Source: Alkalihalobacterium alkalinitrilicum
GTDB lineage: Bacteria > Bacillota > Bacilli > Bacillales > Bacillaceae_F
DNA length: 64,000 nt
Reading direction: 5' to 3'
NCBI RefSeq assembly: GCF_002019605.1
Contig: NZ_KV917368.1
Span: forward strand, 5,405,885 to 5,469,884
Shown here: one piece after another, positions 23,600 to 37,267 of the stretch
How positions within the stretch are numbered: the first letter of the stretch is position 1
Layout: each line of letters opens with the position of its first letter
The notes under the pieces: generated by a model
The model's input: the letters and a program-made list of their open reading frames with translations, nothing else
The model's database searches: none
Told to the model about the DNA's origin: nothing
Translations under genes and position numbers: made by a program

Positions 23600-24280
23600 G
23601 TGAAGATTGATATTCTGACACTATTTCCAGAAATGTTTTCAGGTGTATTTGGTTCTTCAATTTTGAAGCATGCAGCGGAAAGAGGACTTGTTTCTTATAA
23701 TGTAGTTGATTTTCGGAATTACGCACAAAACAAACATAGAAAAGTGGATGATTATCCGTACGGTGGAGGAGCAGGAATGGTGTTAATGCCACAACCAATC
23801 TTTGATGCGGTCGATGATTTGGTAATAGAACAAGACTCGAAGCCGAGAGTTGTTTTACTATGTCCTCAAGGAGAACGATATACACAAAAAAAAGCAGAGC
23901 AACTTGCAAAAGAAGAGCATCTTATTTTAGTGTGTGGACATTATGAAGGTTTTGACGAACGAATTCGTGAGCATCTTGTCACTGATGAGATTTCCATAGG
24001 AGATTATGTTTTAACGGGTGGTGAACTTGGTGCGATGGTTATTTCCGATAGTGTTACCAGGTTGTTACCAGGTGTATTAGGAAATGAGACAAGTGCAGTA
24101 ACTGACTCATTTTCAACAGGATTACTAGAACACCCACATTATACTAGACCAGCTGACTTTCGTGGTATGAAGGTTCCAGACGTGTTATTATCGGGTCATC
24201 ACGAAAATATTAAAAAGTGGCGTCACGAACAATCATTAGAACGTACTAAGAAACGCCGTCCAGATCTATTAAATGACTAG
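23600..24280 (+). CDS. trmD: tRNA (guanine-N1)-methyltransferase TrmD, shortened C terminus
   Basis: Methylates G37 of tRNAs reading CNN and some other codons, preventing +1 frameshifting. 226 aa with a SPOUT knot: [35 protein letters not shown], and catalytic Asp in [19 protein letters not shown]. It ends at RRPDLLND, about 17 residues earlier than B. subtilis TrmD (243 aa). The stop codon coincides with the first base of a 19-nt repeat also present at 35872, so the 3' end may have been cut by a mobile-element end. All catalytic motifs are intact, so activity is expected. Confidence 0.95.
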
Positions 24281-24298
24281 ATGGAAGTTTCACTTTAT
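24280..24298. repeat. 19-nt repeat at the trmD 3' end
   Basis: GATGGAAGTTTCACTTTAT is identical to 35872-35890, where it ends a block of strong hairpins. Similarity continues three bases to the left with a one-base gap (ACTA/ACT) and stops sharply on the right after TTTAT. A chance 19-nt match in 64 kb is very unlikely. Confidence 0.7.
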
Positions 24299-33488: not shown

Positions 33489-35561
33489 ATGGCTGATTAT
33501 TTAGTAATTGTTGAATCTCCCGCAAAAGCTAAGACGATTGGTAAATACTTAGGGAAGAAATTCACAGTTAAAGCGTCAATGGGACATGTGAGAGATTTAC
33601 CAAAGAGTCAAATGGGAGTAGACGTAAATGAGGGCTTCAATCCTAAATATATAACGATACGTGGTAAAGGTCCTGTAATGAAGGATTTAAAAGCAGCAGC
33701 TAAAAAGGTAAAGAAAATTTATCTCGCAGCTGACCCCGATCGCGAAGGTGAAGCGATTGCCTGGCATTTAGCACACAGTCTCAATATAGATGAGACTTCT
33801 GAGTGCCGAGTTGTTTTTAATGAAATTACGAAGCAAGCGATAAAAGATGCCTTTAAAACACCACGAACCATAAACATGGATCTTGTTGATGCCCAACAAG
33901 CACGGCGAATCCTTGATCGATTAGTAGGATATAATATTAGCCCTATATTATGGAAGAAAGTAAAAAAAGGCTTAAGTGCGGGAAGAGTACAATCGGTTGC
34001 AGTTAAAATGATCATCGACCGAGAAAATGAAATCAAGGCATTTATTCCAGAAGAATACTGGAGTATTCAAGCAAAGTTTTCAATGCATGAAGATAGTTTT
34101 GAAGCTAAATTTTATGGCATTGGCTCAAAAAAAGTTGAGTTAAAAACAGAGTCTGAAGTAAATGATGTTCTAGGAAAACTAAAGGGTGAGAACTTCATTA
34201 TAGACTCGGTGAAAAAGAAAGAAAGAAAGCGAAACCCTGTGGCACCGTTTACAACATCTTCCTTACAACAAGAAGCGGCGCGTAAGTTAAATTTCCGGGC
34301 AAAGAAGACAATGATGCTAGCTCAACAATTATATGAAGGAATTGATTTGGGTAAGGAAGGCACCGTCGGATTAATTACTTATATGCGTACAGATTCTACA
34401 CGTATTTCTGATACAGCAAAGCAAGAAGTAAAAGCTTATATTGAAGAAACGTATGGTAAGGAGTATACGCGTCAAGGAGAGAGAATCGTTAAGCAAGATA
34501 AGAAAGCTCAGGATGCTCATGAAGCGGTTAGACCGACTTCAGTAAACAATGACCCTAAAACGGTTAAAAGCTTCTTATCTCGTGATCAATTTCGTCTCTA
34601 TAAGTTGATTTGGGATCGACTAGTTGCAAGTGAAATGGCGCCTGCGATTATGGATACAATGACGGTTGATTTAAAAAATGAAGATGTTGTTTTTAGAGCA
34701 ACAGGTTCAAAAGTAAAGTTTGCTGGATTTATGAAAGTTTATATTGAAGGTAATGACGATGGAAAAAATGAAGAAGATCGATTTTTACCAAATTTAGAAG
34801 AAGGTAAATCCGTAAAAAAAGAAGAAATTACGCCAAATCAACATTTTACGCAACCACCACCTAGATATTCGGAAGCTAGACTCGTAAAAACGTTAGAAGA
34901 GCTCGGTATAGGAAGACCGTCTACCTTTGCGCCAACATTAGATACAATTCAACGCAGAGGCTATGTAGCCCTCGATGAAAAACGATTTGTGCCAACAGAA
35001 CTAGGTGAGATTGTTATTGAGTTAATCCATGAATTTTTCCCAGAAATTTTAGATGTAGACTTTACAGCAAAGATGGAGAATGATTTGGATGCAGTTGAAG
35101 ATGGGAAAGAAAATTGGGTCCGAGTTATTGATGGGTTTTATCGTGGGTTTGAGAAGCAAGTAAAACATGCCGAAGAAGAAATGAAAGAAGTCGAGATAAA
35201 AGATGAACCTGCGGGTGAAGATTGTGAAAAATGTGGACATGAGATGGTATATAAAATGGGGCGCTTTGGTAAGTTTATGGCTTGTTCTAATTTTCCAGAT
35301 TGCCGAAATACAAAAGCCATTGTAAAGGATATTGGGGTAAAGTGTCCAACATGCCATGAAGGTAATATCGTCGAAAGAAAAAGTAAAAAACGTAGAATTT
35401 TTTATGGGTGTGACCGTTTTCCAGATTGTGAGTTCGTATCATGGGATAAGCCAATTGCAAGAAAGTGTCCTAAATGTGAGCATATGCTGGTGGAGAAGAA
35501 AACGAAGAAAGGTGTACACGTTCAATGTACATCTTGTGATTACAAAGAAGAGACAAATTAG
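33489..35561 (+). CDS. topA: DNA topoisomerase I
   Basis: Type IA enzyme that relaxes negative supercoils. 690 aa: TOPRIM domain with [15 protein letters not shown] (about 81-95), catalytic Tyr in [11 protein letters not shown] (about 298), and three C-terminal four-cysteine zinc modules (CEKC...CSNFPDC, CPTC...CDRFPDC, CPKC...CTSC), all intact. SD GGGGGAGGAAACGAAC. The B. subtilis order dprA-topA-trmFO is kept, but here with a 398-nt gap after topA. Confidence 0.98.
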
Positions 35562-35705
35562 TGAACTTAATTGAAAGTAAAGCATTAGTAGTATATGATA
35601 TTAGAGGTCTGACTTCTAAAATTAATACAAAGTAAAACATCAAATAGGATGACTAAATAAAAGTGAGTAAAATTAATGATCGAATTTACTATTTATCCCG
35701 TATCA
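35562..35705. other. Gene-free A/T-rich stretch after topA
   Basis: No coding frame, terminator or repeat was recognised in this stretch. It leads into the inverted-repeat block that follows. Confidence 0.5.
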
Positions 35706-35890
35706 ACTGGCAGTAATACCCCACTTCAAGACTTCGAGGAAATCAAAGGAGGATAAGTGGGGGATAATTTCCAGTCACAACTATAACAACTATTTGAACA
35801 CAGACGCGGCCACGTCTGTGTGACCCACATCGTGTGGTCTCTACCATCAGTGGGGAAGAAAAACCCTCACTGATGGAAGTTTCACTTTAT
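35706..35890. mobile_element. Structured repeat block, candidate mobile-element end (IS200/IS605-like or MITE-like)
   Basis: Four hairpins lie in tandem. (1) 21-nt arms 35706-35726 and 35755-35775 (core CCCCACTT / AAGTGGGG) with 4-5 mismatches. (2) 9-bp perfect arms ACACAGACG / CGTCTGTGT at 35798-35806 and 35813-35821. (3) CCACA/TGTGG near 35825-35837. (4) CCATCAGTG (35844-35852) / CACTGATGG (35868-35876) with inner GGG/CCC. The block ends with GATGGAAGTTTCACTTTAT (35872-35890), repeated at 24280-24298. No transposase or tnpB remnant is seen. Tandem subterminal hairpins with a sharp shared end resemble an element terminus or a guide-RNA-like scaffold. The family is inference. Confidence 0.45.
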
Positions 35891-35959
35891 GGGGCATCCT
35901 AAAACAATGGAAACTAGATATACAAAAATGATTCAACACGGTACGGAGGTTAAAATCTA

Positions 35960-37267
35960 TTGGAGACAATACATATTAACGTAGTAGGGGCTGGTTTAGC
36001 AGGAAGTGAGGCGGCTTGGCAAATTGCCAATCTTGGCATCCCTGTGCATTTATATGAAATGCGACCAGTGAAACAAACCCCAGCTCATCACACAGACAAA
36101 TTTGCTGAACTGGTTTGCAGTAATTCATTAAGAGCAAATACACTTACAAATGCGGTAGGGGTATTAAAAGAAGAAATGCGCATATTAAATTCTGTTATTA
36201 TATCATCAGCTGATGCGTGCTCTGTTCCTGCTGGGGGTGCTTTAGCTGTTGATCGACATGAATTTGCGGAGCATGTAACGAGTCGAGTCCGTAATCATCA
36301 ATTGGTTACAGTTATGAACGAAGAAGTTAGTCAAATTCCAGACGGTCCAACTGTGATAGCGACTGGTCCATTGACGTCAGAAAGTCTCTCTAAAGATTTA
36401 AAAGCACTAACAGGAGAAGAATATTTATATTTTTATGATGCTGCAGCCCCTATAATTGAAAAAGATTCTATCGACATGAATAAAGTGTATTTAAAATCTC
36501 GTTATGATAAGGGAGAAGCGGCCTACTTAAACTGTCCTATGACAGAAGAGGAGTTTGACCGTTTTTACGAAGCGTTAATATCTGCTGAAACTGTTCCGCT
36601 TAAGGAGTTCGAAAAAGAAATTTTCTTTGAAGGATGTATGCCGATTGAAGTGATGGCACAGCGAGGCAAAAAAACGATGCTATTTGGACCGATGAAACCT
36701 GTTGGACTTGAACATCCTGAAACAGGGAAAAGACCATATGCTGTTGTTCAACTTCGTCAAGACAATCAATCAGGAACGTTATATAACATAGTTGGATTTC
36801 AAACGCACTTAAAATGGGGACCGCAAAAAGAAGTTCTTAAACTTATTCCTGGTCTTGAAAATGCTGAAGTTGTTCGTTATGGTGTCATGCATCGAAATAC
36901 ATTTATCAATTCCCCAAAAGTGTTACGACCAACTTATCAATTTAAAGAACGAGACGATTTATTTTTCGCAGGACAAATTACTGGTGTTGAAGGATATGTA
37001 GAGTCAGCTGCATCAGGACTTATTGCTGGGATTAACGCAGCGCGTTTTGTCGAGCAGAAAGAATTATGTGTTTTCCCAGAAGAAACGACGATTGGTAGCA
37101 TGGCCCAATATATTACGACGGCAAATCCAAAAAACTTCCAACCGATGAATGCTAACTTTGGATTGCTTAAACCATTAGAACAGCGAATTAAAAATAAAAA
37201 AGAGCGTAATGAGGCATTAGCTAACCGTGCATTGGAAACAATTCAGAATTTTGTGAAAAAAATGTAA
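35960..37267 (+). CDS. trmFO: tRNA (uracil-5-)-methyltransferase TrmFO
   Basis: Folate- and FAD-dependent enzyme forming T54 in the T-loop. 435 aa: FAD motif [13 protein letters not shown] (about 8-20), [15 protein letters not shown], active-site Cys in [15 protein letters not shown], and [15 protein letters not shown] near the C terminus. TTG start with GGAGG about 10 nt upstream, somewhat long. The preceding 400 nt are noncoding and carry the repeat block. Confidence 0.96.

Follow-up and report, generated by a model that had tools for sequence, protein, structure and literature searches.

Between two genes which, from their translations, appear to be topA and trmFO, the window (the whole analysed stretch of 64,000 nucleotides of the Alkalihalobacterium alkalinitrilicum genome, below called the source genome) contains a block of hairpins. 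This block is a short, geneless mobile repeat, present here as a whole copy, its completeness following from the recovery of both ends in aligned genomic copies whose flanks are unrelated. The features are listed here with the evidence for each.

24280–24298, + strand: right-end-only remnant of the repeat family at the trmD stop codon (sequence; genome positions 5430163–5430182, one mismatch)
35646–35654, + strand: left arm, AGGATGACT, of an older intergenic hairpin (sequence; the joined site folds into a hairpin)
35692–35696, + strand: TTTAT, left flanking target pentanucleotide (sequence; found without mismatch in 58 of the 74 own-genome copies whose left end was recognised)
35697–35890, + strand: mobile repeat, complete copy of 194 nt (30-copy alignment in which similarity is lost abruptly at both ends; covariance model match)
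35706–35775, + strand: left-end compound hairpin with outer stem ACTGG/CCAGT (fold; covariation of left-end stems in the repeat family)
35719–35726 with 35755–35762, + strand: inner stem of the left-end hairpin, CCCCACTT with AAGTGGGG (fold; covariation)
35789–35838, + strand: shortened Bacillaceae-1 RNA module, RF01690 (cmscan, 27.6 bits)
35798–35809 with 35810–35821, and 35825–35837, + strand: arms of the first hairpin and the second hairpin of the Bacillaceae-1 module
35841–35879, + strand: right-end hairpin, arms 35841–35855 and 35865–35879 (hairpin search, fold, covariation)
35886–35890, + strand: terminal TTTAT on the right side of the element (without mismatch in 60 of 74 own-genome copies)
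35891–35900, + strand: right arm, GGGGCATCCT, of the interrupted intergenic hairpin (sequence; joined-site fold)

The four strong hairpins of the preliminary description were confirmed by folding, as a compound left-end hairpin, two short ones in the middle and a right-end hairpin: the + strand of 35695–35900 reached −74.3 kcal/mol compared with −52.2 ± 4.5 for shuffled sequences (z −4.96; none of 200 as stable), and the opposite strand of the block gave a z of −6.07. The block was also described as non-coding, and no open reading frame of at least 80 amino acids was found inside it. As to its extent, the right boundary at 35890 holds to the base, while the 30-copy alignment and the covariance model shift the left boundary from 35706 to 35692 with the target TTTAT or 35697 as the first base of the element. 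The covariance model used for the window, built from 20 repeat copies of other organisms, matches 35692–35890 with 64.2 bits (E 5.8e-11). No terminator-like site was detected in 35500–36000, and terminal inverted repeats were not found, the only two hairpin pairs detected in 35600–36000 not joining the two termini. The sharing of the end sequence with trmD, a gene name taken over from the preliminary description, is real: the remnant, GATGGAAGTTTCACTTTAT, begins at the final base of the stop codon of that gene. Against the full covariance model it scores 15.9 bits (E 0.41), which is not significant.

Copies, structure and distribution of the repeat

A comparison of 35700–35895 with its own genome gave at least 40 matches of 74–100% identity, 40 having been scored of 212 first-look candidates. 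In co-oriented alignment, 30 of the genomic copies begin with TTTAT followed by CCCGCAACAACTGGCAGT and finish with ACTGATGGAAGTTTCACTTTAT, and their flanks are unrelated. The right end TGATGGAAGTTTCACTTTAT occurs 120 times at up to two mismatches (76 forward, 44 reverse; reversed control 0), at least one of these matches (4336882) resembling a chance hit within a gene. This bears out the earlier proposal of a gene-free, multi-copy mobile element with sharp ends and subterminal hairpins. Flanks were available for 99 of the 120 right ends, the remainder being two-mismatch matches. Among these flanked copies, a left end was recognised in 59 long and 15 short ones, the short forms measuring 54 nt or 98–115 nt; in the other 25 none was recognised, in some because it has diverged. 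In the 54-nt forms the left foot is joined to the right end, apparently via short direct repeats. A second subfamily has a right end starting TGAATGAAG and, in its right stem, a change that compensates; it was seen at G000:C1 441933, 999797, 1037294, 1951491 and 2141613 (L176, L177, L179, L182 and L183).

The module-free core measures 144–162 nt in named genomes, and subterminal hairpins are present at both ends of the element, as seen in folds and in three covarying helices. In an alignment of 22 module-free elements, 92.9% of the cells of the three-helix structure are paired. Pair changes on both sides numbered 12 compared with 4.9 ± 1.4 in shuffles (reached in 0 of 500) and 2–7 with slid pairing; for 20 of the rows the figures were 11 and 4.9 ± 1.3. 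The shuffles leave kinship uncorrected, and the slid-pairing controls correct for relatedness. Further pair types were not above the shuffles in the 22 elements (19 compared with 17.7; 146 of 500 shuffles). Alignment A1, which consists of a starting set of 22 elements without L084 (which carries a module), L099 and L115 (both with deletions) and with L267 added, and alignment A2, in which L099 and L115 were restored, led to the same outcome, and RNAalifold recovered largely identical helices. Since covariation exceeds both the shuffled and the slid controls, the pairing is under constraint, as single-stranded DNA or as RNA. IS200/IS605 elements have, 5′ of each palindrome, a guide tetranucleotide that pairs with the cleavage site; in most rows of A1 the two stems are preceded by TTAA and CTAA, and the left end of the source genome differs there. 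Long members of up to about 490 nt (L094; also L077, L116 and L118), all from Bacillaceae bacterium Marseille-Q3522, have extra hairpin modules within the loops of the core element.

No element was found between topA and trmFO in any of the three congeners (G001–G003). Each of their spacers holds a hairpin whose sequence differs between species, and the hairpin is kept in all four genomes of the genus despite this sequence change (window 35646–35900; L187, L188, L189). In the window, the element split the older hairpin, the arms of which are now 236 nt apart. Of 14 joined-flank queries, 5 found one or more congeners with a sequence that spans the join and lacks the element, one of the five alignments extending just a few bases past the join. 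TTTAT stands at both ends, but the relatives with empty sites are 71–79% identical, too diverged for base precision, so that joining at a single base of TTTAT is not proven. At up to one mismatch, the source genome has 73 right ends compared with 1, 0 and 1 in the three congeners.

These observations bear on a non-mobile reading, in which the block is a host-selected structure behind topA, such as a UTR, a terminator or a processing element. It lies directly behind topA in place of an older hairpin, and in two B. cereus strains 84 of 165 and 62 of 155 copies of interspersed repeats belong to a transcript (PMC3446304). The preliminary description had set a single-copy topA 3′ UTR conserved in relatives against its own proposal; what was found instead are 120 right ends, about 100 copies elsewhere in the genome, spacers without the element in all three congeners and no terminator-like site. 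As an origin of the block this structure is refuted, and we give the reading hardly any credence. A later effect of the element on topA or trmFO mRNA may nevertheless exist.

The distribution is patchy. In 120 genomes of the order, 28 were positive and 8 had at least 10 copies, with same-genus contrasts of 54/0, 17/0/0, 42/3 and 19/1; as a counter-case, G061 and G100 belong to one genus and are both copy-rich (33 and 96). The right end occurs in many genera of the Bacillales (at least 120 stretches in named genomes). Phages gave no match to the repeat, viral contigs one. A short element of the family lies at about 2974–3064 of L266 on plasmid CP079755.1, a record labelled Klebsiella grimontii, which points to transfer or an assembly mix-up. 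Right-end matches were also seen in records labelled Modestobacter (a 4.6 kb contig, L079), Chryseobacterium (L128) and Clostridia MAG (L148); the first may be a contaminant, and the second looks like a chance match within a gene.

The Bacillaceae-1 RNA module

For the Bacillaceae-1 family, terminal loops RUCCU and nearness to rRNA operons have been noted. The middle of long repeat copies is this Rfam RNA (RF01690). The window copy, which scores 27.6 bits and thus falls under the gathering score of 35, has lost part of the module; longer copies score up to 80.9 bits. In 20 chosen loci, 20 hits above the gathering score were obtained, distributed over 18 of the loci. The source genome contains at least 106 hits, 98 of them above the gathering score (150 scored of 544 candidates). 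At least 74 of the 106 listed hits lie in the repeats described here: 54 stand before a listed right end, 5 more are inside own-genome matches to 35700–35895, and 15 of 16 further non-rRNA loci that were read belong to elements of the family, some of them decayed.

Eight hits share the identical score of 56.5 bits. Four of them, checked with Rfam, are located between 23S and 5S rRNA genes, and the remaining four are assumed to occupy the same spacer.

G000:C1 3635858, 3642229, 3182898 and 1856494 (L366, L367, L368 and L384), rRNA strand: Bacillaceae-1 RNA in the 23S–5S spacer (Rfam)

The tally is completed by one hit elsewhere (L375) and 23 that are counted in none of these groups. L375 (G000:C1 2303760–2303825) is a module of 71.2 bits outside the repeat family; its stretch has inverted GTTCAAAAAG-like ends and an interior resembling rRNA spacer flanks, and it possibly represents another repeat family sharing the module. 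An idea involving CsrA that concerns the reverse strand of this RNA family (PMC4333381) was set aside for the source genome: in the four checked spacer copies the other strand is the rRNA strand.

In L057, L080, L082, L092, L103 and L112, six loci from three genera, the module is inverted relative to the element; in Cytobacillus, Bacillus sp. FJAT-29790 and the source genome it points the same way as the element. Its occurrence in either orientation marks it as a separate module outside the mobility core. It is seemingly not needed for mobility, since it is missing or inverted in many members of the family. Bacillaceae-1 has been listed as a structured motif, judged RNA 'Y' and not cis-regulatory (PMC2864571). 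In the present data most of its occurrences are cargo that a mobile repeat carries, oriented either way, and others form part of the 23S–5S spacer. A limited literature search returned no description of it as part of a mobile repeat, which is not a claim that none is in print.

Orientation with replication and the mode of movement

Origin and terminus of the source genome were placed using dnaA (3.75 Mb) and the sign changes of GC skew (about 3.75 Mb, and between 1.20 and 1.25 Mb), the skew being sampled in 20 stretches of 12 kb. On this basis, 92 of the 99 flanked copies are oriented with the replication fork; of the genes of at least 100 amino acids in the same stretches, 159 of 203 run with it. 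Between convergent neighbouring genes the elements are 17 to 1 with the fork and between divergent ones 9 to 1. When the two neighbours are both directed against replication, all 11 elements follow the fork; when both are directed along it, 49 do so and 5 point the other way. Because the bias persists where neighbouring genes do not run with the fork, orientation in this genome tracks replication and not transcription. On the opposing side, 85 of 98 non-rRNA RF01690 hits are fork-oriented, and of the 44 without a listed right end no more than 35. The strand with TTTAT at its 5′ side is the lagging-strand template in the source genome (92 of 99 copies), the template also used by IS608 and ISDra2 (PMC6006769), and the fork-linked orientation fits IS200/IS605-like movement through single-stranded DNA of the lagging strand. 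In other organisms, 77 of 123 copies agree with local GC skew (26 of 41 where neighbouring genes converge or diverge, and 18 of 28 of these at strong skew) and 72 of 127 with the majority coding strand. By these local proxies, which are poor and confounded by local gene direction, other species show little bias, and the strong bias is not repeated. For the source genome, we consider movement via single-stranded DNA linked to the fork likely.

The same orientation would be expected if a structured transcript were reverse-transcribed into single-stranded DNA of the lagging strand in the manner of a group II intron. The structured RNA module and the 25 of 99 copies without a recognised left end are compatible with such RNA-mediated copying. 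Against it, the left TTTAT is mostly exact (58 of 74 copies with a left end), and 304 kb of sequence selected without regard to the repeat contain as many left-end-only as right-end-only pieces (3 and 3), which gives no sign of a bias towards 5′ truncation. Several short forms, moreover, resemble losses between short direct repeats. Copying through RNA is therefore regarded as improbable.

The search for a mobilising enzyme with matching ends gave none in the source genome or in the other loci examined. The source genome has 13 Y1_Tnp and 12 TnpB-domain hits, and no gene framed by repeat ends was found within 1.5 kb of any of them; among these loci, L040, L046 and L054 have a copy or a right end some distance away, and L049 has a weak match. 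Likewise, none of 28 loci (L308–L335) or 26 loci (L387–L412) of other genomes is framed by repeat ends; at L312 and L401 a copy or a right end lies about 1.3 kb or less from a Y1 gene, on one side only. Two resident IS605 types were rejected as parents, the four-copy type for its different ends (TTAAC...GTTCAC) and the second (L036) for its right end, which finishes in GTGGAGTTTCAG. The end comparison covered these two types. The four-copy IS605 (L033, L034, L035 and L037 with L045, L046, L047 and L050) has open tnpA and tnpB genes and the target TTAAC, and its right-end hairpin shares CCCCCACTTCAA with the left hairpin of the repeat. Autonomous long copies did not emerge either: for 94 of 144 right ends in 120 named loci a left end lies upstream on the same locus, in five cases at more than 450 nt (486, 492, 760, 3087 and 5195 nt). 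Of the three that were read entirely or partly, the 492-nt pair consists of extra hairpin modules, and the 760-nt and 3087-nt pairs span unrelated sequence or genes.

The results also bear on the remnant proposed in the preliminary description, in which the block is a guide-RNA (omega RNA) scaffold or an IS605 end that outlived its element. Its geometry, with a TAM-like TTTAT, hairpins and a variable flank, is that of an IS605 right end. The window copy, however, has both ends and is no orphan, no tnpB or iscB gene overlaps it or lies next to it, and no TnpB gene with these ends was found within 1.5 kb of the 12 TnpB-domain hits. In the loci read, the left–right pairs are too short to accommodate tnpB or, if longer, enclose modules or unrelated genes. 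Beyond TTTAT, the sequence on the right side of the copies has no constant motif, which is expected for any mobile element and lends no support to guides. We regard this origin as very improbable. What stands of the likeness to IS200/IS605 is the fork-linked orientation and the end hairpins; the transposase with these ends did not turn up.

Presence of a Y1 transposase fails as a predictor of copy number. One genome with 54 copies (G075) has no Y1_Tnp match at E 0.001, another with 42 (G026) has a single 24-bit fragment with a stop, among 16 named genomes with the repeat, 3 lack a Y1 match (G041, G044 and G046, drafts by their titles), and congeners with 0–1 copies do carry Y1 proteins. This leaves three cases: the mobiliser is gone, it is encoded outside the assembled sequence, or it belongs to a class other than Y1. 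The last case would describe the same mobile element with a mover outside Y1/HUH, for instance a tyrosine recombinase acting on folded single-stranded DNA or an undescribed enzyme. The two copy-rich genomes and the missing relation to copy number speak for it, but the mobilising gene may have been lost or may lie on a plasmid or in unassembled sequence, and hairpins, a fixed target and fork orientation are traits of IS200/IS605. Such a mover has a minor yet appreciable chance of being the right one; for a Y1/HUH enzyme we see about even odds.

Relation to known elements and significance

By description rather than by sequence, bcr1 is the closest known kind. It shares TTTAT motif repeats, tens to more than 100 dispersed copies, strong secondary structure and mobility without a named enzyme (PMC6542083), its lengths of 147 and 167 (PMC2267715) compare with 144–162 for the module-free elements, and the traits of bcr1 group A (bcr1–bcr3), namely TTTAT repeats, about 150 bp and many dispersed copies, are all seen in the repeat. 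The first BCR element has been described as confined to the B. cereus group (PMC6542083), whereas the present repeat occurs in many other named genera and, unlike bcr1, carries the Bacillaceae-1 module. No B. cereus-group record was among its plasmid hits. The closest mechanistic models are PATEs, ends-only derivatives of IS200/IS605, and the REP elements moved by TnpA_REP. Like the repeat they have hairpins near both ends and no gene, a fixed short target and fork-linked orientation, the latter for the repeat in the source genome only (PMC6006769, PMC8266576, PMC7290912). In contrast to them, the repeat has no parent insertion sequence with matching ends and no linked TnpA that could be found, bears identical TTTAT at both termini, is longer and modular, and is abundant in one genome entirely without Y1 matches. 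MITEs of DDE transposons, under which bcr1 has been filed by others (PMC3733652, PMC3446304), are similarly small, geneless and repeated with a 5-bp sequence on either side; the repeat differs in that no terminal inverted repeats were found, in its single target sequence and in its orientation tied to replication.

That the hairpin block is a mobile element is, in our view, nearly certain. The best explanation as a whole, to which we assign a probability of roughly 0.55, is a non-autonomous structured mobile repeat, PATE- or MITE-like and similar to bcr1, that is moved by a Y1/HUH enzyme via single-stranded DNA. It takes as observed the high copy number, the mostly exact TTTAT...TTTAT ends, the compensatory hairpin changes, the absence from three congeners, the patchiness among sister species and, for the source genome, the orientation with replication rather than transcription. 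The TTTAT-bearing strand would be cut as single-stranded DNA on the lagging-strand template by an enzyme acting in trans, for which a Y1/HUH transposase of the IS200/IS605-TnpA_REP superfamily is the most likely candidate. This enzyme would recognise the end hairpins and excise the unit, which would be joined 3′ of another TTTAT, giving one TTTAT on each side, and the Bacillaceae-1 module would be carried as cargo between the end hairpins.

A more far-reaching proposal, which we put forward as doubtful, is that a Bacillales repeat family, moved via lagging-strand single-stranded DNA by an unrecognised enzyme other than the resident Y1 proteins, shuttles the Bacillaceae-1 module between dispersed sites and 23S–5S spacers, in which case RF01690 would be largely mobile and bcr1 one branch of a wider superfamily.

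The kind of element is already known; new are its spread, its fork orientation and its cargo. Short TTTAT-flanked repeats have so far been treated as a speciality of the B. cereus group, with the mechanism of their mobility unsettled, and the wider family together with the fork orientation in one genome yields a testable model of movement through single-stranded DNA. The same-genus contrasts of 54/0 and 17/0/0 offer material for finding the mobilising gene. The source genome also shows which strand of RF01690 is transcribed with the rRNA, a point left open earlier (PMC4333381), and this RNA family of unknown function thereby gains a genomic home in mobile repeats and the 23S–5S spacer.
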